Assembly (NCBI RefSeq): GCF_017357525.1
Contig: NZ_CP036172.1
Location: 2,640,561 to 2,704,560 of the forward strand
DNA: 64,000 nt
From: Methanofollis aquaemaris
GTDB taxonomy: Archaea > Halobacteriota > Methanomicrobia > Methanomicrobiales > Methanofollaceae
Reading direction: 5' to 3'
Position numbers and translations under genes: made by a program. The notes beneath the pieces were generated by a model, which saw only the letters and a program-made list of their open reading frames with translations, was not told the origin of the DNA and made no database searches. Positions 37,645-59,222 of the stretch are shown piece after piece (positions within the stretch are counted from its first letter, which is position 1; each line of letters begins with the position of its first letter).

Positions 37645-37650
37645 CTTTTT

Positions 37651-37881
37651 GGCTCTGTAGAATTCCTCAAGACGGTCATCTCTGCGGGGGGCTGGCCGCC
37701 CCCCGGTCCCCCCGCGCGAAGATAGGCAGGGGACGGCAATACTCTCTTCATCGTCATTGATAGTGCCTTCCCGGCCCTATCGCAATCCCGGGGGTCCGGG
37801 GGCAGAGCCCCCGGCGTGAGCATGGGGGAAGGCGGTTGAATCATACTCAAACCTAGAAAAAGTGAGGTTTTCTACAAGGCC
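37651..37881 (+). repeat. Short TIR element with 9-bp target duplication at a stop codon (231 bp)
   Basis: Ends GGCTCTGTAGAATTCCTC (37651) and GAGGTTTTCTACAAGGCC (to 37881) are inverted repeats. TGACTTTTT flanks both sides (37642-37650, 37882-37890). Internal GC module: GGGGGGCTGGCCGCCCCCC hairpin, then a 70-bp unit (37764-37833) bounded by GCCTTCCC and GGGAAGGC containing CCGGGGGCAGAGCCCCCGG. No coding frame. Confidence 0.9.
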
Positions 37882-37901
37882 TGACTTTTTAAACTTTTTT
37901 T

Positions 37902-38385
37902 GGCTGTGAGCATATCCCAAAAGTGTCCCGAACATGAATCTTCGTCCGTATCAAAACCCTTCATTCCAGAAATTCTGATCGCAGACCTTCCGCCGGGTGG
38001 CTGGTTGCCCCTCGTTCCCCCCGCAGAAGATAGGGAGGAGGACGGTAATCCCCTTTTCAGCATCATCACATGCGCCTTCCCGCCCCCATCGCAATCCCGG
38101 GGGTCCGGGGGCCGCGCCCCCGGCGTGAGGGTGGAGGAAGGCGTGGTGATCCGACGTGCCGCCCCCCTTGTAGACTCTTCACCGCAATCTCGCGCCGGGG
38201 GGCTTTGCCCCCCGGAACCCCCCACGGACAGAGGATAGCCGAGGGGCGGCGGATGAGTGGTGCCCTCCTCGCCCCCTGTTGCTAAGAGAGGGATCCAGGA
38301 TCTCTCAACAGTTCGAAACCCTGCTCAGAACAATATTCAACCGCGTATGCTTGAGCCCCCGGTTCATGTTGAATTCTAAAGAGCC
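37902..38385 (+). repeat. Long TIR element, left end altered (484 bp)
   Basis: Begins near 37902 with GGCTGTGAGCATATCCCAAAAG and contains a distinctive unit around 37925-38060 (ACATGAATCTTCGTCCGTATC...AGAAGATAGGGAGGAGGAC). It ends GAATTCTAAAGAGCC at 38385. This copy is the uninterrupted relative of the element at 58571-59222 (reverse orientation) and so shows the empty site of the insertion found there. The remainder of the gap (38386-38582) shows nothing clear. Confidence 0.8.
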
Positions 38386-38582: not shown

Positions 38583-38755
38583 ATGGCTGCAAAAAATGAC
38601 CGATATAACTCTGGATCGGCGGGGCAGATCCCGGAACAAAGAGATATTCGAGCAGATATGCCCCGCTTTCCTCTCTATGATCCGTCGGATCCGGAGGATG
38701 AATCCCCGAACGGATCTCGAAGGGTAATTCCTGGAGGGTTTTATCTGAAATACGG
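38583..38755 (+). pseudogene. Possible small open reading frame cut by a repeat insertion
   Basis: From ATG 38583 an open frame of about 57 codons reads MAAKNDRYNSGSAGQIP...FYLKYG and then runs into the 38755 repeat element, where it continues as meaningless Arg/Pro-rich sequence. A strong AT-rich promoter-like block lies upstream (GATATTTGATAAACC, 38552-38566). No family is recognised; it may be the remnant of a gene whose 3' part is lost, or not a gene at all. Confidence 0.3.
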
Positions 38756-38996
38756 GCTTTGTAGAAATGCTCTGGATGGGTATCTTTGCGGGGGGCTGGC
38801 CGCCCCCCGGACCCCCCGCATCAGGATAGGAGCGAGGACGACAACCCCCTCTTCAGGCGCATCAATGGCGCCTTCCCGGCTCTATCTTCATCCCGGGGGT
38901 CCGGGGGCAGCGCCCCCGGTGCAAGAATGAGGGAAGGCGATGGATTCGGTCATAGGGGGGTTGAAGGGATGAAATGAGGATGGTTTCTACAGGGCC
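38755..38996 (+). repeat. Short TIR element with 8-bp target duplication (242 bp)
   Basis: Left end GGCTTTGTAGAAATGCTC at 38755; right end GGTTTCTACAGGGCC at 38996. The 8 bp GAAATACG flank it exactly on both sides (38747-38754, 38997-39004). Internal modules are the same as in the 37651 copy: GGGGGGCTGGCCGCCCCCC, then GCCTTCCC...CCGGGGGCAGCGCCCCCGG...GGGAAGGC. The 100 bp after it hold the promoter of the next gene (CATATATATATTATT at 39074-39088). Confidence 0.9.
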
Positions 38997-42482: not shown

Positions 42483-42573
42483 ACTGGTTAGGTTCGCTTA
42501 GCATCTGATATAATCTTCACTTTCACCCCGCACCCGGTCCATCTTTTTCCCTCTCAGGACCGAGTTGAGAACA

Positions 42574-43629
42574 ATGTCTCGTGCCGCAGAGGTCGCGGCC
42601 CTCACCAGGGCGGCGCGCTTTGATCGCTGTGTCCCTGATCCTGTTCTGCCGGGGATCCCCGTCGCATCGGGCCGGTGCAGGCGGATGATGAAGGTGCTGC
42701 TCCATGGGCGGTGTGCGTACGACTGTGCCTACTGCGGGATCCGGACGTGCCGGGAGGATCGTTCCCTCTCACCGGCAGACCTCGCCGATCTCTTCCTGCG
42801 GATGTGGCGCGAGGGGCGGGCCGACGGGCTCTTCCTCTCGTCGGGTATCCCGCGCGACGTCGACGAGGCGATGGAGGGGATCCTCGAGACCGGCGAGATT
42901 CTGCGGCGCCGGGGGTACGACGGATATCTCCATCTCAAGGTGCTTCCCGGCGCGGCGCGGGCCGACATCACCGATCTCGCCAGGGTGGCCGACCGGATCT
43001 CCATCAACATCGAGGCGCCTTCGGCGTCCAGGCTCTCGGAAATCGCCGGGGTGAAGGACTACCGGCAGGACATCGAGAAGAGGCAGACCTGGGTCGCCGA
43101 CGCCATGCCGGGACGACACACCACCCAGCTCGTCGTCGGGGCGGCCGGCGAGAACGACGCCGAGGTGCTGGCCTGCATCGCCGGGCAATACCGGCGTCTG
43201 GCCCCGGCCAGGATCTATTATTCGGGTTTCAGGCCTCTTCCCGGAACGCCGCTTGCCTCCCACGATCCCACCCCCCTCTGGCGGCAGAACCGTCTCTACC
43301 AGGCGGACGCTCTGCTCAGGCTCTACCACTTTTCCACGGATGAGGTGGCCGGGGTGCTGGACGAGGGAGGGTTCTTGCAGAACGCCGACCCCAAGCGACT
43401 CCTTGCCGGGGAGAGGCCGCGGGTGGACGTCAACCGTGCCTCCCTTGCCGACCTCCTCAGGGTGCCCGGCATCGGTCCGAAGAACGCCCGCCGGGTGCTC
43501 GCCGCACGGGAGAAGAGTCCTCTCAGGTCTGAGCGCGACCTCAGGGCCTGCGGCGTGCGGGGGAGAGGGGTGGGGCGGTATGTCACCTTCGGGGAGGGGG
43601 ATGTGCAGAGCGGGATCTTTGAGTTTTGA
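42574..43629 (+). CDS. Radical SAM protein with C-terminal helix-hairpin-helix (putative DNA modification/repair)
   Basis: 351 residues from ATG 42574. Radical SAM cluster site LHGRCAYDCAYCGIRTC (CxxxCxxC), followed by SSGIPRDVDEAMEGIL and an IEAPSASRLSEIAG segment. The C-terminus has a DNA-binding helix-hairpin-helix VDVNRASLADLLRVPGIGPKNARRVLAAR. This arrangement matches the radical SAM family usually paired with a uracil-DNA-glycosylase-like partner and proposed to act on DNA; that partner is not visible here. Reaction unknown. Confidence 0.85.
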   Translation: MSRAAEVAALTRAARFDRCVPDPVLPGIPVASGRCRRMMKVLLHGRCAYDCAYCGIRTCREDRSLSPADLADLFLRMWREGRADGLFLSSGIPRDVDEAMEGILETGEILRRRGYDGYLHLKVLPGAARADITDLARVADRISINIEAPSASRLSEIAGVKDYRQDIEKRQTWVADAMPGRHTTQLVVGAAGENDAEVLACIAGQYRRLAPARIYYSGFRPLPGTPLASHDPTPLWRQNRLYQADALLRLYHFSTDEVAGVLDEGGFLQNADPKRLLAGERPRVDVNRASLADLLRVPGIGPKNARRVLAAREKSPLRSERDLRACGVRGRGVGRYVTFGEGDVQSGIFEF

Positions 43630-43771
43630 TGGGGGGTTGATGAAACTCTCAGACTTTGCCCTCTCTAATCCCACGCCATTCCTGATCCTCGCGCTGGGGG
43701 CTCTTCGAAAAACTTTGTTTATCTCGTGTTCGCTGTCGCTCGCAACCCCCGGACAGTTATAATCAAAGATT

Positions 43772-43958
43772 TTCTCGAACTCGCTCACGCTCGTTCCCTC
43801 AGGATGAAGAGCTGGCCGCGACGGCTGAGAAAAGATCTAGAAAACTGGAATGTCGTCCACCGCTTATTCGTGGTCGCTTCAGGATCTTTGTTCTGCCTTC
43901 CCCCAATCATCTATCATCCCATGGGGCCGGGGGATGGGAGTGTCAGCGAGTTTGAGAA
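43772..43958. repeat. Small inverted-repeat element, family C (187 bp)
   Basis: TTCTCGAACTCGCTCACGCTC at its left end matches, inverted, GAGTGTCAGCGAGTTTGAGAA at its right end (17 of 21 positions). No coding content. It is similar in ends to 30535-30670 but different inside. It lies in the 1.1-kb gene-free gap 43630-44733, which also contains a CTCGTGTTCGCTGTCGCTCGC block at about 43723-43743. Confidence 0.6.
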
Positions 43959-44029
43959 GATCTCTGATCTTCAAGAGAGCACCCGGTGCGATCTGGAGGG
44001 AAAGTAAGTCGATTAGAAGTTCTCCTCTG

Positions 44030-44504
44030 AACAATTTTCATGTGTTATGCATGAGGTGTGCTCTCGACTCATGTTTGATTACCATGAAACAGGATGAGGC
44101 AAGAGCCTCATACTGAACCAATGAAAACCTACCCATTGAATTCTATTTCTGATTTCAATGGGGTTTTCATGGAAAATGATCCTGACGATCAACCTGGGCG
44201 GTTTGTATGATGATTTCTCATCATCTGGATCCTTTATACCTGATATACGAAGTACAGAAACTCTCTCAGAATGATCGGCCGCCCTCAGCGCAGAACCTTC
44301 ACCGTCGTCTCGCGCCGGGGGTTGCACCCCGAGACCCCCCACGGAGAGAGGATAGGCAGGGGCGGCACGATGCAAGATTTCTGGCCGTTCCCCTGTCATA
44401 AGGGGAAGAACCAAGGATCGGTCCTTCCAAGCCCCAGAGAGCGGCGACATGAAATTTTCATCGCGTATGCTTGAACCCAGGGTTCATGCCCTATTCTACA
44501 TAAT
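44030..44504 (+). repeat. Decayed long TIR element copies before the AT-rich island
   Basis: Two right-end sequences are visible: ATTTTCATGTGTTATGCATGAGGTG near 44034-44058, and AATTTTCATCGCGTATGCTTGAACCC...TTCTACATAATC near 44453-44505. Between them is the usual CGCCGGGGGTTGCACCCCGAGACCCCCC module (near 44315-44340) with GGCCGTTCCCCTGTCATAAG following. The rest of the gap to 44733 is AT-rich (ACATAATAAATAAAATATTAAATG near 44631-44654) and probably carries the promoter of the radical SAM gene. Confidence 0.6.
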
Positions 44505-44733
44505 CGGAAGACAGGACATTCTTTCTAGTCGAAAATATCTGGTCAGGATGGAATGGAGCGTGTCTGGGGTCTAAAAATATGTTTGAGATCTAGAAGGACT
44601 TCATTTGATGTAAAGAGTTGTACCACAAAATACATAATAAATAAAATATTAAATGCCGATTGCATACATCTCGGATTATATTTGATAATCTTATCAGAAG
44701 TCGGGAGAATGATGCATTGAACATAGAGAGGTG

Positions 44734-45573
44734 ATGAAATTGGTGGCCAATTTTCTGGACCTCCATATTGTTGATTACTGCCAATTGAACTGCAAGCATT
44801 GCTACCTGAATCAGGGCCACACCTTCATGCCGGTGGATATGCTAAAAGAAGTCTGTATCGACTTCATGCAGACCGATTTTCCCCTTCCGCAGAGTACGAT
44901 TATTCTCAGCGGCGGCGAACCTCTTCTCCATCCGCACTTTGATACCGTGTGCACCATTGTACGAGGTCTGAACGGTTTCATTGCCCTGAGTTCGAATGGA
45001 ATACTCATTCCTCAACACATCGATCTTTTCCAGAAAGATGATGGTATCCAGATCAGCATTGACGGAGACAAAACTGTTCATGATTTCATCCGCGGCACCG
45101 GGAGTTATGAAAAAGCAGTGAATGCGCTGAGGATACTGGACGAGAACAGGATACGTCATAGTATTTCATTCACTATCAATGAGGCAAACTTGAAATGCAT
45201 CGACCCTATCATTGATCTCTGCATTGAAACCGGGTCCTATATGCTGAACTTTAATCTTTACCAGCCGATTCGTGACAATGGATTTTATCCTCTAACGTTT
45301 TCACACTGGCTCTCTCTCAGACAACACGTCAAGAAAAGAGCGGAACAAGAAGGGATATTCTGCCCTCTGACCTGTGTGGAAAAGGGCTGTATTGCAGGGA
45401 TACTGGGGCTTTCAGTTCTTCCTGATGGTACATATTGGGATTGTTCACGGAATCAACGTGTTCTTGGAAAGTTTCCTCAACGGATCAAGGATGTCGTACT
45501 CAAGAAAAACATCAGAAGTGGAAAAAGTAGAGATCAATTTGAGACTTGTTGCAAGAAGGTGGATTATGAGTAA
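44734..45573 (+). CDS. Radical SAM enzyme, peptide-modification type (SPASM-like C-terminus)
   Basis: 279 residues. Radical SAM site VDYCQLNCKHCYLNQG (CxxxCxxC), SGGEPLLHP (SAM-binding GGEP), ISIDGDKTVHD. The C-terminus has additional Cys (CPLTCVEKGC, then DGTYWDCSRN and FETCCKK), consistent with auxiliary Fe-S clusters of SPASM/twitch type. Such enzymes install carbon-carbon or thioether links in peptides or modify proteins and cofactors. It is the first gene of a compact AT-rich cluster; the next start overlaps its stop by 8 bp. Not a family I can name. Confidence 0.85.
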   Translation: MKLVANFLDLHIVDYCQLNCKHCYLNQGHTFMPVDMLKEVCIDFMQTDFPLPQSTIILSGGEPLLHPHFDTVCTIVRGLNGFIALSSNGILIPQHIDLFQKDDGIQISIDGDKTVHDFIRGTGSYEKAVNALRILDENRIRHSISFTINEANLKCIDPIIDLCIETGSYMLNFNLYQPIRDNGFYPLTFSHWLSLRQHVKKRAEQEGIFCPLTCVEKGCIAGILGLSVLPDGTYWDCSRNQRVLGKFPQRIKDVVLKKNIRSGKSRDQFETCCKKVDYE

Positions 45574-46606
45574 AGTATATGTAATCGCTTCGTATTGCGA
45601 TCAGGGAAAAATTGCACTGATATTGGCACTTGAAAATTATTATAGGGCACAGGGCAAAAAAGTGGCATGCTTACAAAGGATCAAAGGTCAATCAGATGTA
45701 GGATTATACCTGAAGAAAGGATGCTATCAATACAGTCTTCCGCTTGAAGCTGTAAAAAGCCGAAGTGCACTTGAACAGTGGTTGCCAAAAGGATTTGATG
45801 TTTATATCGTCGGGATTTCTACCGCGTATTCCCCTATTGGGGCTGCATATCTCGATCTCTTTTCGAGTTATAACGAAATCATTCCTTATGATTGGTTTGA
45901 TAATGTGACAGGCTGTGTACAGAACTGTATCCAGTCTTATTCAGGTGATCCTGAAATATTACTGTTCTGGGAAATGGCACGTCAAAAGAATCTTCAGGAG
46001 AAAAAAGTTCAAGAAGCAATTACCGGTGTGTCAGAGCCTCTGGACTACCCCTGCCTGGATAAAAATTCTGTTCTTCATCATCCAGAAACACTCGTCTACG
46101 ATGCATTTGAGCCAAAAATGTCACTGCCGGAGAGTAACAAGAAAGTGATTGCTGTGGGCGCTTTTCCCGGGGAGTTCTGGGATATTTTCCATGATCTCAT
46201 GTGGTATGGGTACGACTACATGCAGTTCGTCCAGAGGCTTGAGGAAGAAAGTTATGATCTGGCGATTATTGGAGAATGTAGCAATGGATCTTTAAAGTTG
46301 CCCAGTAAGCCAAAAAATAAAACAGTCATTTGCTATCAGCCTTCAGTTTATTTCCCGTTTCGACAGCCTGAAAATGTATTTCAATCCGGCAAAAGCATTG
46401 GACAGATTCCTAAGAACATAAAGGAGAGACCCGTGGGTACATCTCTGGCTGATAACGGGTTTTCATACAGTGCCTATCAGAATAGATTCTGGTTATTTCA
46501 GAGGTATCCCGGGACTGATATTGTCCGGCATGAGGACAATATCATCTATTGTAACGGATGGGTACTCCCTCAGTACCTGATGAGGGATGGATTACTGGAG
46601 GTGTGA
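45566..46606 (+). CDS. Unknown protein with degenerate CobB/BioD-like P-loop domain
   Basis: 346 residues from ATG 45566 (AGGTGG upstream). The first ~120 residues read like a dethiobiotin-synthetase/CobB nucleotide-binding fold: VYVIASYCDQGKIALILALENYY in the P-loop place, but the Walker A Gly and Thr/Ser are replaced (S...GKI), then ACLQRIKGQSDVG and a DVYIVGISTAY strand. The rest (residues ~190-346) is a second domain with VIAVGAFPGEFWDIFHDLMWYG, aromatic-rich and unrecognised. ATP use is doubtful. It sits between the radical SAM gene and the Cys-rich protein, with overlaps on both sides or a 2-bp gap. Confidence 0.7.
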   Translation: MSKVYVIASYCDQGKIALILALENYYRAQGKKVACLQRIKGQSDVGLYLKKGCYQYSLPLEAVKSRSALEQWLPKGFDVYIVGISTAYSPIGAAYLDLFSSYNEIIPYDWFDNVTGCVQNCIQSYSGDPEILLFWEMARQKNLQEKKVQEAITGVSEPLDYPCLDKNSVLHHPETLVYDAFEPKMSLPESNKKVIAVGAFPGEFWDIFHDLMWYGYDYMQFVQRLEEESYDLAIIGECSNGSLKLPSKPKNKTVICYQPSVYFPFRQPENVFQSGKSIGQIPKNIKERPVGTSLADNGFSYSAYQNRFWLFQRYPGTDIVRHEDNIIYCNGWVLPQYLMRDGLLEV

Positions 46607-46608
46607 TC

Positions 46609-47181
46609 ATGGGAGGTGGTGGCTGGAGCGATTGGGGGAACTGGGCAAACTGTTGTGTTCCATCAGGTCCGTATCTCACCTTCTACATACGACACTACCG
46701 GTGTGGTCAGTCGTCCTGCCAGGGAGGTACAGGTTCCTGGAATTTAAATGCCGTGTGTCTGCAAAACGCAGTGATGCGATATGCACGGGCCGGAAAAAGT
46801 TCTCAATTCTCCAATGCTCTATCATGTTGTTACTGGAGAGAAGATTATAGATGCCCTGAGCACTGCTATTTTGAGGAAAATTACAACAAGGACATCTATA
46901 TCGTCGCAATAACAAATGGGGATCTTGTATTTGGCCATGCCGTCTGCGCCGAATATCTCGGAGGAGGAGTAGGAGAATTCAGCAACTGGAAATTTTTCCA
47001 GTACGATAATCTCAATATAACTCCAGGAGACTGGCAGATGCCGTACGGAACGGAATGGCAGGAAACAAAAGTCGAGATAAAAAAAGTAACTGACATACCC
47101 GACTGTGGTCATTACAATAGCGATCGATATCCTGTTGTGACATTTTTGATCGACGAAAATGGTAGGATAACCATTGGTTGA
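46609..47181 (+). CDS. Cys/Gly/Trp-rich protein, possible papain/transglutaminase-like fold or modification substrate
   Basis: 190 residues from ATG 46609 (GGAGGTG seven nt upstream). N-terminus MGGGGWSDWGNWANCC, then eleven Cys in total. A Cys-His-Asp order is visible: NAVCLQNAVMRYARAG (Cys), DLVFGHAVCAEYLGG (His), NWKFFQYDNLNITPG (Asp), the spacing of transglutaminase-like cysteine peptidases. There is no signal peptide. It could be an enzyme of the cluster or the substrate of the radical SAM protein; the Gly-Trp-Cys start is attractive as a modified segment. No family recognised. Confidence 0.7.
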   Translation: MGGGGWSDWGNWANCCVPSGPYLTFYIRHYRCGQSSCQGGTGSWNLNAVCLQNAVMRYARAGKSSQFSNALSCCYWREDYRCPEHCYFEENYNKDIYIVAITNGDLVFGHAVCAEYLGGGVGEFSNWKFFQYDNLNITPGDWQMPYGTEWQETKVEIKKVTDIPDCGHYNSDRYPVVTFLIDENGRITIG

Positions 47182-47197
47182 CAGGAGATGGCAATGA

Positions 47198-47779
47198 ATG
47201 AAAATAATTCTTGGAATAAAAAAACATCCGATTTTGGTGGGAGTTGGTACAGTGATTATTGTATTAGTAATCATATGTTTCGCAGTATTGATGGTAGAAG
47301 AATTACAATCCCCAGAAAAAACTGAAGATACGAAGGAGACTGAAAATATGACATTAGAGGAGTTACCAGAGGATTTGAAAGATGAGATTGAGCATATACG
47401 ACTATACAGTAAATTTGGCATAAGTAAATTGGAATTAGATGCCAAAAATAAACACCTCGTCATATATGCTTTCGATATAACGGATGAAAAAGAAGTGAGC
47501 GATCTCCAGGGAAAGCAAATCAGTAATTGGACCATTCAGATCGTTCACGATGTTGACTATGAAAAGGAGAGAGATCAGATCCGAACCGAACTTATGGAAC
47601 TGGAAAAAGATCCGGAATTGCAAATCGCAGGTTTTGATCTGTCGACCGAAGAAATCAACGTGTGGGTCTACGAACGCACACCCGAAAACCAGGCGCTGGA
47701 CGGCAAGGAGATTCACGGCTGGACGGTCCATGTCTGGGTTGCGCTCACCCCGACAGAGACTGGAATTAATAGGTGCTAG
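47198..47779 (+). CDS. Membrane-anchored protein with duplicated domain
   Basis: 193 residues. One transmembrane helix (residues ~12-34, PILVGVGTVIIVLVIICFAVL), an acidic linker, then two similar units: ISKLELDAKNKHLVIYAFDI...GKQISNWTIQIVHD and IAGFDLSTEEINVWVYERT...GKEIHGWTVHVWV. The pattern strand-strand-'xLxGKxIxxWTxxV' repeats. Exported side expected for the duplicated part. No family recognised. It follows the Cys-rich gene by 16 bp, so is probably the last member of the cassette and its link to the cell surface. Confidence 0.68.
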   Translation: MKIILGIKKHPILVGVGTVIIVLVIICFAVLMVEELQSPEKTEDTKETENMTLEELPEDLKDEIEHIRLYSKFGISKLELDAKNKHLVIYAFDITDEKEVSDLQGKQISNWTIQIVHDVDYEKERDQIRTELMELEKDPELQIAGFDLSTEEINVWVYERTPENQALDGKEIHGWTVHVWVALTPTETGINRC

Positions 47780-47930
47780 TGCTCTCGCTATCGATGGAAA
47801 ATCTGCTTCCGGTGTAATCTATCCATGAGAGGTATGAAAGGTGTTGGCATAAACCTGAAAGCCCTCTGTATCGTCCTGCTGCTTGATCACATGCACCCAC
47901 CAAGTTAGCGGCAACCTCCATCGTCCCGCT

Positions 47931-48294
47931 GACGAATGACCCGGCAATCAATTTGTATCAGTCTTGGTCACCAGATGGGAAACACATTGCCTTCACGTCA
48001 TCCGATAACGACCATGCCGGCATCAAGGTTATGGAACTACGTTGTCGGTTCGGCACTGGAACCAGAGTTTTCGATCTGGATTACAGAGATCGGGGGGAAT
48101 GCCACCGCACAGGTGACGACAACCGCAATGGTCGCCTGACGGAAAAAAGATCGCCGTAAGCGATGGAAACGATCTCTTCACCGTCATCCTTGATGATCCA
48201 CAGCAGACAACACCTGCCTTGCCGATTTATGGCGTTTGGGGTGGTGGCGGCACTCTCACTGTTCGCAGTGGGCGTTGCTTTTAAAAGACGGTGA
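47931..48294 (+). pseudogene. Remnant of a TolB/WD-type beta-propeller surface protein
   Basis: Fragments in different frames: YQSWSPDGKHIAFTSSDND near 47955, a second WSPDGKKIAVSDGN near 48131-48172, and a C-terminal membrane tail AFGVVAALSLFAVGVAFKRR ending at TGA 48292-48294. The first two are the PD40 repeats of TolB-like propellers; the tail resembles PGF-CTERM-type anchors. At least two frameshifts separate them and the N-terminus is absent. The preceding 150 bp (47780-47930) show nothing else. Confidence 0.75.
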
Positions 48295-48511
48295 TCCTAT
48301 CACCTGAACTGGCGGTGTGTATGATCCTGCCAGGAGAGTTAGCGGGATGCAATCCAAGAAATCAGGCCCCCTATCGCTCGCACTCAGTGTCGAGATAGCA
48401 CCGGGGATGGCTTTCCTCTCCTCAAGATCTTCAATGTTGTTTTCCGACCCGGAGATCCAAAAAAGATGATCGCGGGAAGTGTGAAGACGTTCTCCCTCCG
48501 TCCCGCACCTC

Positions 48512-49213
48512 TCACTTATACTCGCGCTTCGAGTACGAATACTTCTCGGAGTTCCCGCCCCGCACCACGATATAGATCCACTCCCAGAGGGACTTGAGCG
48601 TCCCGAACTGCTCGTACCGGCGCATATCGAAGGCGACGCGGAGTGAGGTGTCGAGGAAAACCTTCCCGACCTCGCTGGTCCGGCGGGCGATCTCCAGGTC
48701 GTCGCCGGCGTCGATGCACCGGTACATCCCGACCTCGATGAAGGCCTCGCGGCGGAAGGCGGTGTTGCACCCGAGGGTGTAGTACATGGTGTGCGTCCAC
48801 GAACCGAGGCGGGAGAAGACGTTGGCCAGGGCGAGGGAGATGGAGTGTTTGAGGTTCTTCTCCTTGGGATACACCAGGCCGTAGACCTGGACGACGTCCG
48901 GGTGGCGCGCGAAGTCCTCCTCGATCCGCTCCAGCCAGTCCGGGGGGATGACGCAGTCGGCGTCGGTCGTGGCGACGATCTCCCCCTTCGCCGCCTTCGC
49001 CCCGTCGTTCCGTGCGCCGCCGACCTTCTTGCTCGTCTGGATGAAGACCTGGTCGGCATATTCGGCGGCGATCTCGCGGGTCCTGTCCTTCGACCCGCCG
49101 TCGACGACGATGAGTTCGTAGCGCTCCCTGGGGAGGGTCTGGTTGCAGAGCGACGCAAGACACGCGGCGATGTTCGCCTCTTCGTTATAGGTAGGGATCA
49201 CAACTGAGATCAT
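48512..49213 (-). CDS. Family 2 glycosyltransferase
   Basis: 233 residues from ATG 49213. GT2 features: MISVVIPTYNEEANIAACLASL, VVDGGSKDRTREIA, GEIVATTDADCVIPPDWLE (DxD-like) and TAFRREAFIEVGMY, with AGDDLEIARR near the active site. It transfers a sugar from a nucleotide donor, likely in surface glycan or S-layer glycosylation. Third gene of an operon with the UGM-like and GT4 genes; its start overlaps the GT4 stop in ATGA. Longer open frames upstream overlap GT4 and are spurious. Confidence 0.9.
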   Translation of the reverse strand: MISVVIPTYNEEANIAACLASLCNQTLPRERYELIVVDGGSKDRTREIAAEYADQVFIQTSKKVGGARNDGAKAAKGEIVATTDADCVIPPDWLERIEEDFARHPDVVQVYGLVYPKEKNLKHSISLALANVFSRLGSWTHTMYYTLGCNTAFRREAFIEVGMYRCIDAGDDLEIARRTSEVGKVFLDTSLRVAFDMRRYEQFGTLKSLWEWIYIVVRGGNSEKYSYSKREYK

Positions 49214-50190
49214 GACGAGGTCAACTCCTGGTAGAGTCTGACATGGAGGTCGGAGACTTTCCTGATGTCGTAGCGTTCGGTGAAGGGTCTGGAGAGGTCG
49301 GCGTGCTGCCTGAGGAGGGCGGTGTCCTCGAGGAGTGCCCCGGCCCCGGCGAGGTCGTCGAAGTAGAGGGCGGCGTCGCCGAAGTTCCCGGTGAACTCGG
49401 GGATCTTGCGGGCGACGACCGGCAGGCCGCTGGCGAGCGCCTCCAGGATGACCATCGGGAGGCCCTCGGCGAAACTGGGCATGAAGAAGACGTCGGCGCT
49501 GCAGTAGGCCGCGGTGATGTCCTCGACGAACCCGGTGAAGAGGACGTTCTTGCCGCACTTACTCTTCTCCTCTTCGATCCGGCCGTGGTCTTTTGAGAAC
49601 CTGCCGTAGGGGAACCCGCCGACCCAGACAAACCTGGTGTCCGGGTGGTCCCGCGAGAGGGCGAGGAAGTCGTAGATGCCTTTCCGGGGTGTCTGCTGGG
49701 CGACGGTGAGCACCACCTGCTCGTCCTCGCCGATCCCGTACGTCTCGCGGAAGGCCGCCCGCTTCTCGGCGTCGGGTCTGAACCGTTCCCTGTTCACGCC
49801 GTTCGGGATGAGGGTGGTAGGGACGTCGGGGGCGAACTCGCGCACCTCCTCGTCGCAGAGCGGCGAGATGGTGATGATGTGGTCGAAGCCCTGGTATATG
49901 CCGGGGTAAAAGTTGTTGACGGTATCAGAGAAGGCGAGGTTGCCGGCGTTGAGTCGTGGCGTCGAGTGGGCGGTGAGTACGGTCACCGCGCCGCTCAGTT
50001 TTTTGTTTGCGAGGGCGAGGGGACCGAAGGTATGGTAGTGGACCAGGTCGAAGTCCCGGCCGTGAGCGTTCCAGGAGACTTCGGGGCCGCCGTTGCCGTC
50101 GGCGAGCGCCCGGTACAGGGTCTTTGCCAGGGTGGCGCAGCCGATATATTTGAAAAAGAGCATGTCCTCGACGAAAAAGTTGACTTTCAT
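49210..50190 (-). CDS. Family 4 glycosyltransferase
   Basis: 326 residues from ATG 50190 (MKVNFFVEDMLFFKYIGCATLAKTLYRAL). GT-B fold: ITISPLCDEEVREF, LIPNGVNRERFRP, VVLTVAQQTPRKGIYDFL, and the donor site FFMPSFAEGLPMVILEALASGLPVVAR (EGLPMVILEA with catalytic-region Glu). Transfers hexoses retaining configuration. Translationally coupled by ATGA overlaps to both neighbours. Specific donor and acceptor unknown. Confidence 0.9.
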   Translation of the reverse strand: MKVNFFVEDMLFFKYIGCATLAKTLYRALADGNGGPEVSWNAHGRDFDLVHYHTFGPLALANKKLSGAVTVLTAHSTPRLNAGNLAFSDTVNNFYPGIYQGFDHIITISPLCDEEVREFAPDVPTTLIPNGVNRERFRPDAEKRAAFRETYGIGEDEQVVLTVAQQTPRKGIYDFLALSRDHPDTRFVWVGGFPYGRFSKDHGRIEEEKSKCGKNVLFTGFVEDITAAYCSADVFFMPSFAEGLPMVILEALASGLPVVARKIPEFTGNFGDAALYFDDLAGAGALLEDTALLRQHADLSRPFTERYDIRKVSDLHVRLYQELTSS

Positions 50191-51527
50191 GAAAACTCCT
50201 TCGCAAACTCGATGACGTGACGGATGCACCCGTCCATATTGAGGTACTCGAACTCGGAGAACCGGCCGACAAGATCGATCCCGAGGCTCTCGCAGTACTC
50301 CCTGACGATCTTGATATTCTCCAGGTAGGCGAGGTCGTAGATGACGTAGGCGTATTTCTGGCGTTCGACCGAGGTGGTGAGCACCTGGTCGCGCGAGGCG
50401 ATGACTCCCATCTCCATGAGGCCGTCGACGGTGGAGGCGACGAGGTCGTCGTCGGAGAGGGCCGCGGTGGGGTCGCCGTCGCGGTAGGTCACTTCGGCGA
50501 GGACCGAACTGCACCCTTCGGGGGCGTTGGTGTCGCTGTAGCCTGAGGGGAAGGAGATCCGGTTGAAGGGGCCGAGTTCTTCCTGCGGGACATAGACCCA
50601 GGAGTACGGCGGGACGTCGCCCCTGAGTCCGAGGCAGACGCAGGCGACCGAGTTGTACTTGAGGGCCCGGCAGGCCGCGGCAACGTCGTGTGGGACGCCG
50701 TCGAGGGCAGGGAGGAGGGCCTGGAGGGGGATGGTGGAGATGCACCGGTCGGCGACGACCTCTTCGGTGCCGTCGGAGATCACCCAGCGGTCGCCCTTGC
50801 GCCTGACCGACCTGACCGCAAACCCGGTCCTGATGGCGTCCTCGATCGGTGCGGCGACGGCCTTCACCATCGCCTCGATCCCGCCCTCCTGCGGGTACGA
50901 GAAGACCGACTGGTGGGTGTAGCCCTCGGTCTCGATCCCGACCGCCGACCTGACCACATCCTCCACCGGCGGCCTTGGCACGCGGCCGTCCATCCAGTGG
51001 GCCGACATCTCCTCCGGCGGGAACTTCCAGATCTTTCTGTTGTACGGGAGCATGTAGCACGCCGCGATCCCCTCGCCGAAGGTGGTGCGGATCCACTCGC
51101 CGAAGTTCTCGGGCGGTTTCACCTCGCCCTTCTCCGCGGCGATGAGCGCCTTGATGAACTCGTTGATGCAGAAGAAGAGGTCGTCCTTCGGGAGGTCGGC
51201 AAGTCCGTTCTCGAAGGGGTACTTCACGTACCGCCCCTTGTAGAAGATCTTCGTCTTTCTCTGCCGTTCGGTCCGGTTCTCCCCGAGCGCCTCCTTCATG
51301 AGGGAGAGGACCTCTGTATCTCTTGAAAATATAATGTGCGACCCGCCGGTGTCGAAGGTGAAGCCGTCGATGACCTTCGACCGGCAGAGCCCGCCGTACC
51401 CGGACTCAGCCTCAAGGACCACCACGTCCTCGCCCTGCTGACGCAGCAGTCGCGCCAGTGTTATGCCGGTCAGTCCGCCGCCCAATATCGCCGTTTTCAC
51501 GGTGTAATAGGTTTGTGGAGGATTCAT
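50187..51527 (-). CDS. FAD-dependent amine-oxidase-like protein (UDP-galactopyranose mutase / protoporphyrinogen oxidase-like)
   Basis: 446 residues. Dinucleotide loop VKTAILGGGLTGITLARLLRQQGEDVVVLEAE followed by GYGGLCRSKVIDGFTFDTGGSHIIF, and a middle section IWKFPPEEMSAHWMDGRVP with SYPQEGGIEAMVKAVAAPI. This set is typical of UGM-like flavoproteins in glycan loci that make or desaturate sugar nucleotides. In an operon with two glycosyltransferases, a sugar-modifying role is likely; exact chemistry cannot be read. A GTG at 51500 is an alternative start. Confidence 0.8.
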   Translation of the reverse strand: MNPPQTYYTVKTAILGGGLTGITLARLLRQQGEDVVVLEAESGYGGLCRSKVIDGFTFDTGGSHIIFSRDTEVLSLMKEALGENRTERQRKTKIFYKGRYVKYPFENGLADLPKDDLFFCINEFIKALIAAEKGEVKPPENFGEWIRTTFGEGIAACYMLPYNRKIWKFPPEEMSAHWMDGRVPRPPVEDVVRSAVGIETEGYTHQSVFSYPQEGGIEAMVKAVAAPIEDAIRTGFAVRSVRRKGDRWVISDGTEEVVADRCISTIPLQALLPALDGVPHDVAAACRALKYNSVACVCLGLRGDVPPYSWVYVPQEELGPFNRISFPSGYSDTNAPEGCSSVLAEVTYRDGDPTAALSDDDLVASTVDGLMEMGVIASRDQVLTTSVERQKYAYVIYDLAYLENIKIVREYCESLGIDLVGRFSEFEYLNMDGCIRHVIEFAKEFS

Positions 51528-51632
51528 TTATGGTTGTTGATATTCGGTGAACGGCCCAGGATCATGATGAACGGGGGGAGAAAAGGGGAGGCCGGAGGGC
51601 GGTCGAGCATGGATGCACCGTCGACTTCCGTC

Positions 51633-52307
51633 TTACTTCATGTACCGCGAATAACTCTCTATCGTATAGACCGCCGCGAGGGGGTTGTGGCCGAGCAAGC
51701 GATCCTTGGCGGCGAGGACGGTGCAGGGCGCCTCCGCATATTTCATGAAGAGGGAGTCGTGCCCGACGCAGAGGCCGAGCATGATGTTGAACTCGGTCTC
51801 TGCGGCATTGAGGAGCATGGCCTGGAAGATGGGATTGCAGATCTGCTCGTCGGTGCCCGGCGCCACCTTCTCCTGGTCGGAGACGCCGAGAGTCTCTTTC
51901 GGGACGCGGCCCGCCTTGCAGACCACCGAGATGACTTCAAAACCCCGCCCCCTGAAGAAACGCTCCACCGCCGCCGCCTCCTTTGCAAGGCCGGTGCAGA
52001 AGGCAAGGCCGAGGCGGCGGTATCCCATCTTCCCGGCAAACTCGGCCGTCTCCTCAAGCCGGCACTTCACCGGCCTGAGGCGGTCGTACCCCTGCTCCTT
52101 ATCTCCATAGCCCTCGCCCTCCTGGACCGCCGCCGCCCGTGCAAAGGCGGCCACGGCAGGGCGGCGGTACTCCTCCATCGCGGCGGCCAGCACTTCGGCC
52201 TGCTCTGCCGTCGGACATCCTGGGATCGACCTCCCGTCTTTTGTCCTGCAGAGTTGCTCGTCTTTTTTGATCCCGCATCTGGCGCATGCAGGGTAGCCTC
52301 CTTCCAT
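51633..52307 (-). CDS. DUF1847 metal-binding protein
   Basis: 224 residues. Opens with a Cys-rich zinc/Fe-S motif YPACARCGIKK...CRTKDG...CP, then YRRLGLAFCTGLAKEA and VGHDSLFMKYAEAPCTVLAAKDRLLGHNP (conserved GHDSLF and GHNP). Matches the DUF1847 family of anaerobes, predicted metal-binding and of unknown role. Separate from the neighbouring operons; a few ORFs on the opposite strand are shadows. Confidence 0.87.
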   Translation of the reverse strand: MEGGYPACARCGIKKDEQLCRTKDGRSIPGCPTAEQAEVLAAAMEEYRRPAVAAFARAAAVQEGEGYGDKEQGYDRLRPVKCRLEETAEFAGKMGYRRLGLAFCTGLAKEAAAVERFFRGRGFEVISVVCKAGRVPKETLGVSDQEKVAPGTDEQICNPIFQAMLLNAAETEFNIMLGLCVGHDSLFMKYAEAPCTVLAAKDRLLGHNPLAAVYTIESYSRYMK

Positions 52308-52359
52308 GGATCACTCCTGGGGGGCCGGGTAAAAATAGAGAGAGATTGCGGCAGTCCGT

Positions 52360-53862
52360 TCACCGGAGGTGGATGAACTTGCCGGTCAGCGTGGCGTCGA
52401 GCACCTTCGCATCGGTCTTCGTGGTCGCCATGCTGACGACGACCATCGTGACCGCCGAGAGGAGGAAGGCATACATGCTGAAATGGAAGGGCATCTTGTC
52501 GACCACATAGTACCAGTAGCCAAGCGCCCCGCCTGAGACCAGACCGACCAGCATCGAGGCGATGGCACCCTCTCTGGTCGCACCCCGCCAGTACAGCCCG
52601 GCGAGGAGAGGCACCGCAAAGGTGGCGAGCATGATCCCGATCCCGGACCACATCAACCACGCGAGCATCTGGGGCGGGTTGATCGCGAGGAGGAGCGTCC
52701 CGCCGGCGGCCACGACGACCGCGACCCTGGAGACGAGGAGCACCTCTTTGTCGCTGGCCGAGGGCCTGAAGATATTCTTCCAGACATCCCAGGCAAACAT
52801 CGAGCCCACCGTGAGCATCAACCGGTCGGTCGTCGACATCACGGCCGCGAGCACGATCACCGCAAAGAACGACCAGACCCAGAGGTTGGGCATGGCGTAC
52901 TCCAGCCCTGAGATGAAGATGAAGTCCTGGGCATTGGGCACGTCGGGGAGAATGATGCTCCCCTCCTCGACGAGCACCCGGCCGGCAAACCCGGCAAACT
53001 TCATCAGGAGCATCACGACCGCGTAGACCGCGAAGGCGATGAGCGGCGACCACTTGAAGTAGCGCTCCTCCTTTGCCGCCAGCACATTGTTGATGACGTG
53101 CGGGGCGCAGGCAAGCCCTACCGTGAGCATCAGCCCGAACGAGAGGAGAAACTCGGGCGTGAAGGTCATCCCCTCGGTGAGGTACGGCTGAACAAAGGTC
53201 GGGTCGATCCCGGCCATCACCTCGTTGATATGGCCCATCCCGCCGGCTTTCATGATGAGGATCGGCGCGATCGCAAGCACCCCCACGATAAGGAGGCCGC
53301 CCTGGATCACCGTCGTCCACGAGACGGCGTACAGCCCGCCGACCACGGTGTAGGCGGTGATGATGACGCCCGAGATGATCAGCGCCTGCCAGTGGGGGAT
53401 CTCAAAGAGCCAGACGAGCACGATGGAGATCGCAGTGTACTGTCCAATCAGGTAGATGAGGGAGACGATGATCCCGGCCACCGCCGAGAGTCCTCGCATG
53501 ACCTTCGGGCTCTCGAAGCGGTCGGCAAGATAGTCCTCGACCGTCAGGTAGTTGTTCTTCTTCCCGATCCGGTGGAGTTTGACGCCGAAGACGATGATAC
53601 AGAAGGAGGCGGCCAGCGGGACGAAGAGTTGTTCCCAGATGGAGGGCCACCCGGTGGTGAAGCCGAGCCCGCTCACCCCGAGCAGGGTCATCCCCGAGCA
53701 GATGGAGGAGACCATCAGGATGGTGAAGACCCAGAACCCGAGCGACCTTCCGGCGACGATGTAGTCCTCGGTGTTGTGGATCTTGCCCGAGGCCCAGGCC
53801 CCGATCACGATGAGGACCAGGAAGTAGAGGCCGATGATCCCGGCCGTGACCGGTTCGATCAT
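52360..53862 (-). CDS. Sodium:solute symporter (SSS family)
   Basis: 500 residues with about 13 hydrophobic segments. SSS features: GSWASGKIHNTEDYIVAGRSLGF-type start, LVSLIYLIGQYTAISIVLVW, VVGGLYAVSWTTVIQGG (the Na+-symporter signature region) and LAAVMSTTDRLMLTVGSMFAWDVWK (Na+ site region). Substrate (acetate, proline, pantothenate or other) cannot be told. It begins inside the stop codon of a tiny upstream gene (53859-53966) whose product is probably its accessory protein. Confidence 0.9.
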   Translation of the reverse strand: MIEPVTAGIIGLYFLVLIVIGAWASGKIHNTEDYIVAGRSLGFWVFTILMVSSICSGMTLLGVSGLGFTTGWPSIWEQLFVPLAASFCIIVFGVKLHRIGKKNNYLTVEDYLADRFESPKVMRGLSAVAGIIVSLIYLIGQYTAISIVLVWLFEIPHWQALIISGVIITAYTVVGGLYAVSWTTVIQGGLLIVGVLAIAPILIMKAGGMGHINEVMAGIDPTFVQPYLTEGMTFTPEFLLSFGLMLTVGLACAPHVINNVLAAKEERYFKWSPLIAFAVYAVVMLLMKFAGFAGRVLVEEGSIILPDVPNAQDFIFISGLEYAMPNLWVWSFFAVIVLAAVMSTTDRLMLTVGSMFAWDVWKNIFRPSASDKEVLLVSRVAVVVAAGGTLLLAINPPQMLAWLMWSGIGIMLATFAVPLLAGLYWRGATREGAIASMLVGLVSGGALGYWYYVVDKMPFHFSMYAFLLSAVTMVVVSMATTKTDAKVLDATLTGKFIHLR

Positions 53863-53966
53863 ACCTCGTCCTCTTTGAAGACGAACGCCCAGAGGGTGAG
53901 CATGACGGTGACCGCAATGAAGGCGGTGCTGACGATGGCAAGTGTCTCGAATGGAAGGCCGATCAT
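53859..53966 (-). CDS. Small membrane protein, symporter accessory subunit
   Basis: 35 residues. ATG 53966, stop TGA 53859-53861; the symporter ATG overlaps it (ATGA). One hydrophobic helix (LAIVSTAFIAVTVMLTLWAFVF) flanked by MIGLPFE and an acidic KEDEV end. Small proteins of this size directly preceding SSS symporters are known as symporter small accessory proteins. It is too short for automatic gene finders but the coupling is convincing. Confidence 0.75.
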   Translation of the reverse strand: MIGLPFETLAIVSTAFIAVTVMLTLWAFVFKEDEV

Positions 53967-54130
53967 AGTACTATGTCAATGTGTGTCATGCCAGCATATA
54001 ACATGATCGGTCGGAGCGGCCCTCGCCTCTCAAGCATGAGAAGAGGCGATCTTCAGGGGGCGGGGGGCGGGCGGGTGCGAAAAAAGGGGATGAATGCAGT
54101 ATCCGGATTATCATCAGTAGAATGGGGCCA

Positions 54131-58570: not shown

Positions 58571-59222
58571 TAGCGTGAACATCCATTCCTTGCCTTCTTC
58601 TATCCTTTCACCGGGTGCTCTGCCACCCGATCCCTATCTTCGTCGTGGGGGTTCCGGGGTGTCTCCCCCCAACGAGAGAAAGCAGGAGAACATTCTTTAC
58701 TCTATAGGTGGGGCGGCACGTCGGATCAGCACGCCTTCCCACACCATACGTGCCGGGGGCTCTGCCCCCGGACCCCCGGGATTGCGATAGGGGCGGGAAG
58801 GCGCACGTGATGATGATGAAAAGGGCTCTGTAGAAATCCTCTCGGTGGTTATCTCTACGGGGGGCTAGCCGCCCCCCGGTCCCCCCGCGTCAAGATAGGA
58901 CAGGGGACGGGAACTCCCTCTCCATGTTCGCTGATTTTGCCTTCCCAACCCTATCTTCATATCGGGGGTCCGGGGGCAGCGCCCCCGGCGCGAGCATGCG
59001 GGAAGGCAGGTGGGTCACGCTTGTACCCAGAAGAGGGGAGGATTTCTACAAAGCCATGAAAAGGGGATTGCCGTCCTCCTCCCTATCTTCTGCAGGGAGA
59101 ACGGGGGGTAACCAGCCGCCCAGCGGAAGATCTGCGATCAGAATTTTTGGAATAAAGGGTTTTGATACGGACGAAGATTCATGTTCGGGAGACTTTTGGG
59201 ATATGCTCTCTGATAAAAAAAA
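58571..59222 (-). repeat. Long TIR element (reverse orientation) interrupted by a nested short element
   Basis: Outer element parts: 58571-58823 and 59056-59222. Read on the minus strand they match 37902-38290 in order, including GCATATCCCAAAAGT, TTCGTCCGTATCAAAACCC and the GAAGATAGGGAGGAGG unit. The inner 232-bp element (58824-59055) splits it. In the uninterrupted relative at 38050 the junction reads, on this strand, GATGATGCTGAAAAGGGGATT. Other short pieces in the gap 58365-58570 include GAGGTCATCCCAAAACTCTCC at 58491, an eroded element end. Confidence 0.85.
58824..59055 (+). repeat. Short TIR element nested in another copy, 8-bp target duplication (232 bp)
   Basis: Ends GGCTCTGTAGAAATCCTC and GAGGATTTCTACAAAGCC are inverted repeats with one mismatch over 18 bp. 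ATGAAAAG flanks it on both sides (58816-58823, 59056-59063). Internal hairpins GGGGGGCTAGCCGCCCCCC and the GCCTTCCC...CCGGGGGCAGCGCCCCCGG...GGGAAGGC unit. The best-preserved short form in the window. Confidence 0.93.

Follow-up and report, generated by a model that had tools for sequence, protein, structure and literature searches.

What is the function of a compact, G+C-poor cassette of four genes, headed by a radical S-adenosylmethionine (SAM) enzyme, in the genome of Methanofollis aquaemaris? The cassette lies in a 64,000-nucleotide stretch, here called the window, that covers positions 2,640,561-2,704,560 of the single 2,746,416-base contig NZ_CP036172.1; all coordinates below are window positions unless a locus (L number) is named. 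Its genes, designated A to D and all on the plus strand, encode a radical SAM enzyme (A, 44743-45573), a protein resembling SIMIBI-class P-loop NTPases (B, 45566-46606), a Cys- and Trp-rich protein (C, 46609-47181) and a membrane-anchored protein (D, 47198-47779). A preliminary description, made from the sequence alone, had reported these four genes; all four open reading frames (ORFs) are indeed intact at those positions, with the A/B overlap and short gaps. That observation is confirmed, and it had overlooked the key feature of the locus, which is the tandem W-x-[D/N] start of C. With moderate confidence, and from sequence evidence, we propose that A modifies this tandem aromatic-x-[D/N] start, probably as three-residue cyclophanes, and that the locus is a modular protein-modification cassette.

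Protein C (190 aa, with 11 Cys and 8 Trp) is preceded by a Shine-Dalgarno-like GGAGGTG upstream of its ATG. Its translation and alignment A6 suggest a substrate N-terminus followed by a payload domain. The tandem core, WSD-WGN-WAN (46624-46650, plus strand), is the proposed modification site of A. Its occurrence follows that of A: at B-containing loci with A, 7 of the 8 readable C starts have at least two aromatic-x-[DNE] units and the eighth has one, whereas at B-loci without A the motif was found in 1 of 19 (Fisher p = 7e-5, with related loci treated as independent). Three A-less C starts were read by hand and have no motif; a fourth A-less locus yielded no C start. At the sole A-less locus with the motif, in genome G324, an ORF resembling an insertion sequence and a truncated B occupy the place of A. 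The C starts that accompany A read MGGGGWSDWGNWAN in the window (MGGGG-WSD-WGN-WAN), MGGGGWSNWGDWAN in G099, MGWISWGNWNDWGEWSD in G628, MGWAEYAD in G142, MGWGDWGNWSD in G193, MGWGEWGDWSD in G326 and MGWSDWGDWMD in G467. The single-unit start is MGWDEVP (G522), and the C start of G111 is deleted.

The association also holds where B is absent. In A loci without B (the class of G326 and the f9 genomes), the partner genes begin with a leader, INKKRWERWRAQQ..., and then carry WNNWGNWGD, WGDWSNWSD or WHDWSD. Two divergent A genes on mobile elements adjoin genes with long W-x(x)-D runs and starts such as WGDWSGDWSGDWSDWSDWATDWGGDWGAD. A count over the 2698 six-frame ORFs of the loci gives 18 contiguous tandem motifs, 13 of them in partners of A. 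Position 1 of the units is Trp in 34 cases and Tyr in 1, position 2 is mainly Gly, Ser or Ala, and position 3 is Asp (20), Asn (9), Glu (5) or Ser (1). The set had been described earlier as a modification system; that interpretation is partly supported overall, and the co-occurrence of A with W-x-[D/N], including at B-less loci, strongly supports C as the substrate. From these sequence patterns, we strongly infer that A acts on C.

Some side observations concern the B-less and mobile-element loci. The divergent mobile-element A genes are at L097 (4798-7029) and L099 (3593-4417), in each case with a next gene that opens with a W-x(x)-D run; in L097 the gene next to A has a weak major-head-protein match. 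Another mobile element (L080) lacks a motif gene and has three consecutive radical SAM genes. In three B-less loci A directly follows another radical SAM gene, whose product apparently has a twin-arginine translocation (Tat)-type N-terminus (L093 105-1055, L094 2808-3827, L096 5962-6891), and a different radical SAM gene or remnant adjoins three A-less B-loci (L042 11103-11930, L043 8443-9171, L047 6207-6590). The motif is missing at distant viral A-like genes (~33% identity).

What kind of enzyme is A? The 276-residue protein starts at a GTG, with a second in-frame GTG at 44731, and matches Pfam PF04055 (2e-17). It combines a CX3CX2C core with conserved auxiliary Cys near positions 211, 216, 234 and 270 (alignments A2 and A4), its C-terminal pattern being C...GC...PDGTYWDC...CC; the earlier reading of A as a radical SAM protein with extra C-terminal Cys thus stands. 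The nearest solved structures are SkfB (5e-19), the CteB-type 5wgg (2e-13), anSME and YydG, most of which modify peptides or proteins. A survey of 150 relatives gave 5 strong homologues of A, including a divergent copy from a mobile element with no B. A role in anti-phage defense was considered and rejected, as A shows generic viperin-like radical SAM similarity alone.

These properties point to the triceptide enzymes (XncB, OscB/GrrM, YxdB, FxsB, YhhB), in which a radical SAM protein with C-terminal auxiliary Cys likewise adjoins a tandem aromatic-x-[N/D] substrate. Three-residue cyclophane enzymes link residues i and i+2: Trp to Asn or Asp in OscB, Trp to Asn or Arg in XncB, and Tyr to Asp in YxdB (PMC11002830). 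The A-C pairs show Trp-Asn, Trp-Asp and Tyr-Asp at the same spacing. At the sequence level, A has the CX3CX2C motif and the SPASM/twitch auxiliary-cluster Cys of this group, and C is an adjacent partner with aromatic-x-[N/D/R/K...] motifs. Because W-x-N/D and Y-x-D are targets of triceptide radical SAM enzymes, and because A has CX3CX2C plus auxiliary Cys and nearest structures that mostly modify peptides or proteins, stapling of C by A is proposed. On this view, A would be a radical SAM enzyme that modifies peptides and takes the tandem aromatic-x-[D/N] opening of C as its substrate. By analogy with OscB-, XncB- and YxdB-type enzymes acting on bacterial peptides, the most likely chemistry is cyclophane formation: A would join the Trp ring to C-beta of Asp or Asn, giving one three-residue cyclophane per unit and three in the window protein.

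Several observations weigh against this reading. A scores far below the cut-off of every curated cyclophane model (GrrM/OscB, FxsB, YhhB, WgkB), the best reaching 50 against 310 bits over the core domain only. Two A-bearing loci have reduced motifs (L037 just WAE-YAD, L083 just WDE), no motif gene is present in the contigs examined for the A copies L091, L092, L093 and L098, and the partner in L093 has a leader and no tandem motif. Unlike known triceptide precursors, the B-locus motif directly follows Met-Gly with no leader, and the C proteins of B-loci are not short (130-540 aa); a leader is present at the B-less loci. Further differences from triceptides are that the A-C pairs are archaeal, that the motif stands at the extreme N-terminus of large proteins with folded payloads, and that no protease or peptide exporter is seen with them, a linked NTPase and surface partners being found instead.

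The low scores also bear on a different product. A may act on the motif of C and form Trp-Trp or Trp-Cys links, an epimerised residue or, where the spacing is W-x-x-D, links between i and i+3, all of which we regard as unlikely though worth weighing. The best curated models for A are not cyclophane families: the top one is the ACGX model (NCBIfam TIGR04340, E 5e-25), with 88 of the 400 bits required and covering the core only (residues 6-179); SbtM and ScmE are also among these models. The nearest structures include the thioether maker SkfB and the epimerase YydG, and the mobile-element partners show W-x-x-D spacing. However, the conserved Trp/Tyr with Asp/Asn at i+2 is the published cyclophane pattern, and a Cys close to the motif is not a constant feature, being missing in G628, G324 and L097, so a Cys thioether is improbable as the common reaction. 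For the same reason a sactipeptide- or ranthipeptide-type thioether on C was rejected: such maturases (SkfB, CteB, PapB), which resemble A through the nearest solved structures, join Cys to other residues, and the motif region of C has no conserved Cys. The ACGX system differs as well, its partner being an ACGX peptide rather than W-x-D/N.

It is less probable still that the Trp motif is purely structural or binding and that A acts elsewhere in C or on a different protein. The WxxWxxWxxC arrangement does also resemble a thrombospondin Trp ladder, and C is rich in Cys, but no thrombospondin profile matched. A thrombospondin or C-mannosylation-like motif was rejected on this ground and because the Cys is not conserved. 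Moreover, the motif is the only part of C common to all A-bearing loci, the payloads differ, and payloads of the same type occur without A at L034, L044 and L047.

If the N-terminus is modified, what does the rest of C contribute? C-type proteins have just their start in common; most continue with a PPVV-like stretch and immunoglobulin (Ig)-like domains, and a minority with the tandem Trp motif. The C-terminal payloads fall into about five types (sorted by eye), usually followed by a gene for a membrane-anchored D-like protein or a PD40 propeller. The window and Methanoculleus sp. UBA430 share a DNA similarity of 82% that extends across B and as far as the final motif codon, beyond which the payloads are unrelated. 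This indicates that C proteins are modular and that the motif moves together with A and B rather than with the payload. The stapled N-terminus would be the constant module and the remainder an exchangeable payload, which in the window would be a ~170-aa Cys/His-containing domain paired with D and elsewhere another domain, usually accompanied by a surface beta-propeller.

The structural model of the window payload has a predicted local distance difference test score (pLDDT) of 85, with residues 1-12 uncertain, and window-type payloads share the invariant residues C50, N53 and H110 (alignment A6). Foldseek found no match to the fold in PDB or BFVD. The order of C50 and H110 fits a papain- or transglutaminase-like payload, in which a Cys opens a helix and a His a strand; this reading is not favored, as neither a fold match in PDB/BFVD nor a sequence match was obtained. 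C had earlier been called a substrate or protease. The co-occurrence data support a substrate N-terminus, and both roles may hold, with a possible Cys/His domain behind that N-terminus, but the fold search did not confirm a protease. Protein D has an N-terminal transmembrane segment followed by two similar domains, as judged from hydropathy, alignment A5 and co-occurrence; its one hydrophobic segment spans residues 12-30 (hydropathy maximum 3.21). D accompanies the window-type payload at every locus where that payload was found.

B was detected in 19 of the 232 Methanomicrobiales genomes and in 15 of 394 genomes sampled across the phylum; some few of these hits are marginal. No match of B was detected among known viruses in IMG/VR. 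Proteins B, C and D have no trusted match in Pfam, NCBIfam or PADLOC. The ATG of B overlaps the end of A by 8 nt, and the 346-residue product was characterized through alignment A1, a structural model and Foldseek. The model (pLDDT 91) matches ParF, BioD and SRP54 with Foldseek probability 1.00, so that a SIMIBI P-loop fold is predicted with confidence for the N-terminal half. B differs from BioD, ParA and SRP54 in its unassigned C-terminal half and in lacking a trusted family match. Its P-loop reads YCDQGKIAL in the window, against PxQGKTTTA in relatives (alignment A1). The GK[T/S] of an intact Walker A motif is thus replaced by GKI in the window and UBA430, and GKT is kept in nearly all relatives, as in the compared proteins. 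The description of B as a degenerate CobB/BioD-like protein was therefore right at the level of the fold, with the degeneracy confined to these two genomes.

B stands directly upstream of a C-type gene at about 30 loci, both within Methanomicrobiales and elsewhere in the phylum, so that a search for conserved gene order, proposed with the preliminary description, had a positive outcome: the genes co-occur elsewhere, and the set matches no known pathway. Where the downstream sequence is intact, the gene right after B starts with Met-Gly or Met-Cys-Gly. B precedes both Trp-type and Ig-type C proteins; it is thus not the partner of A as such. As a SIMIBI-class NTPase, B would probably serve their shared Met-Gly start in presentation, folding or targeting. 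Tandem and partial copies are common: in L044, a B-C-D set is followed by B-tail-C-D and next by B-tail-C. Some B-C loci carry at their far end short pieces of B that cover its first 28-29 codons (L034 14533-14619, L036 1771-1857, L042 12046-12129), as if from tandem recombination, and Yip1-domain membrane proteins recur nearby (L034 15180, L035 10529, L036 511, L039 12031, L040 2560).

Two biological roles were considered, each possible yet doubtful at present. In the first, the B-C-partner sets would be antagonistic effectors with cognate surface partners, similar to polymorphic toxins, and the Trp tag would be one of two modules for delivery or stabilization. Consistent with this, the N-termini are conserved and the payloads behind them vary, partner genes are linked, arrays such as L044 include partial B copies, and D is constantly paired with the window-type payload. 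Polymorphic toxin and contact-dependent inhibition cassettes likewise have a constant N-terminal region, a variable C-terminal domain, a linked downstream gene and partial 'orphan' copies. They differ from C-D, for which no toxin domain or secretion apparatus was found and whose N-terminus is short; neither a known toxin fold nor a secretion gene was detected, the payload has no fold match, and no defense or toxin profile matched.

In the second, which we hold to be about equally tentative, the sets would aid surface capture or processing of metallo-tetrapyrroles or corrinoids, with C and the propeller as binding proteins. About 10 of 31 B-loci lie within ~8 kb of CobN, ChlI/D or BtuF-type genes, CobN-type genes number just 1-3 per genome in most genomes checked, and the set is inside a CobN/BtuF-type operon in L073 and L075. 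Against this, the window is an exception, with its only CobN ~350 kb away, and the proximity could reflect an insertion hotspot. The B-C loci beside or inside CobN, ChlI-D or BtuF-type ABC-transporter clusters are L031, L032, L038, L039, L044, L045, L073, L075, L081 and L087.

Export was examined in the same neighborhoods. In G628, genes for the Tat translocase components TatA and TatC directly adjoin the A-B-C set (L086 3341-5639 and 6654-7775) and a Tat signal is fused to B; a TatA gene lies near the G324 locus (L071 7047-7361), although that genome yielded no TatC. Neither the window genome nor the other Methanomicrobiales genomes checked have TatC, which rules out Tat export of C riding on B as a general route.

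Taken as a whole, the data tentatively suggest that a system widespread in archaea may use a radical SAM enzyme to place a rigid poly-cyclophane N-terminal tag on large, exchangeable effector or binding proteins rather than on small peptides. A SIMIBI NTPase dedicated to the system and surface partners matched to the payload would belong to it, and the pair of enzyme and tag would also occur in archaeal mobile elements. The open-access full-text literature searched, which leaves out most subscription papers, yielded no description of archaeal triceptides or of this gene set. If A staples C, radical SAM cyclophane chemistry would extend to archaea (methanogens and related lineages) and would apply not just to secreted peptides but also to tags at the N-terminus of folded proteins whose domains can be swapped, and a function would be suggested for an unassigned radical SAM family. 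The proposed enzyme-substrate pair would be easy to test, a short peptide being sufficient. The comparison also exposes an undescribed modular B-C-partner gene family, often near CobN/BtuFCD tetrapyrrole operons.

How did the cassette reach this genome, and is it still maintained? The flanks at 42516-43634 and 48459-54000 are 85-95% identical in the congeners G005 and G003, where just 88 bp and ~310 bp separate the joined flanks and the block is missing. Because both flanks are joined without it in two congeners, 43635-48458 is a strain-specific segment of 4.8 kb. G+C content is 43.3% across 44700-47780, compared with 64.5% and 63.1% in the flanks, as the preliminary description had noticed. 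A clusters with Methanoculleus homologues (72-74% identity; support 94/98), and the closest named match of B is from Methanoculleus sp. UBA430 (75% identity). Congener G005 has two B-C loci elsewhere in its genome and no A. The empty sites, the low G+C and the patchy distribution bear out the earlier suggestion of acquisition by transfer, and horizontal acquisition of the block is supported.

Downstream of D, the pseudogene noted earlier at the border could be identified as a broken TolB-like (PD40) surface beta-propeller (~47825-48263, plus strand). Its tblastn matches to the L031/L045 propellers (at most 63% identity, E 6e-14) are spread over several frames, with frameshifts and a large internal deletion. 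In relatives, a PD40 propeller downstream of C is the usual last gene of the cassette. This loss, the missing Thr in the P-loop of B and the frequent partial copies in relatives could mean that the cassette is a decaying relic in this genome, which is improbable: A to D are all intact, the same altered P-loop occurs in UBA430, and dN/dS against UBA430 is ~0.1 for A and B, which indicates purifying selection on both genes, although their synonymous sites are nearly saturated.

The block had also been said to be bordered by repeats. This holds on the left side only, where a repeat that is spread through genomes of the genus has a copy at 44278-44507 (with blastn, it matched L101 and L102 partially at many scattered places); no terminal repeats were found around the block. 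Further copies of this intergenic repeat lie in the window at 37645-38385, 38755-38948 and 58620-59218.

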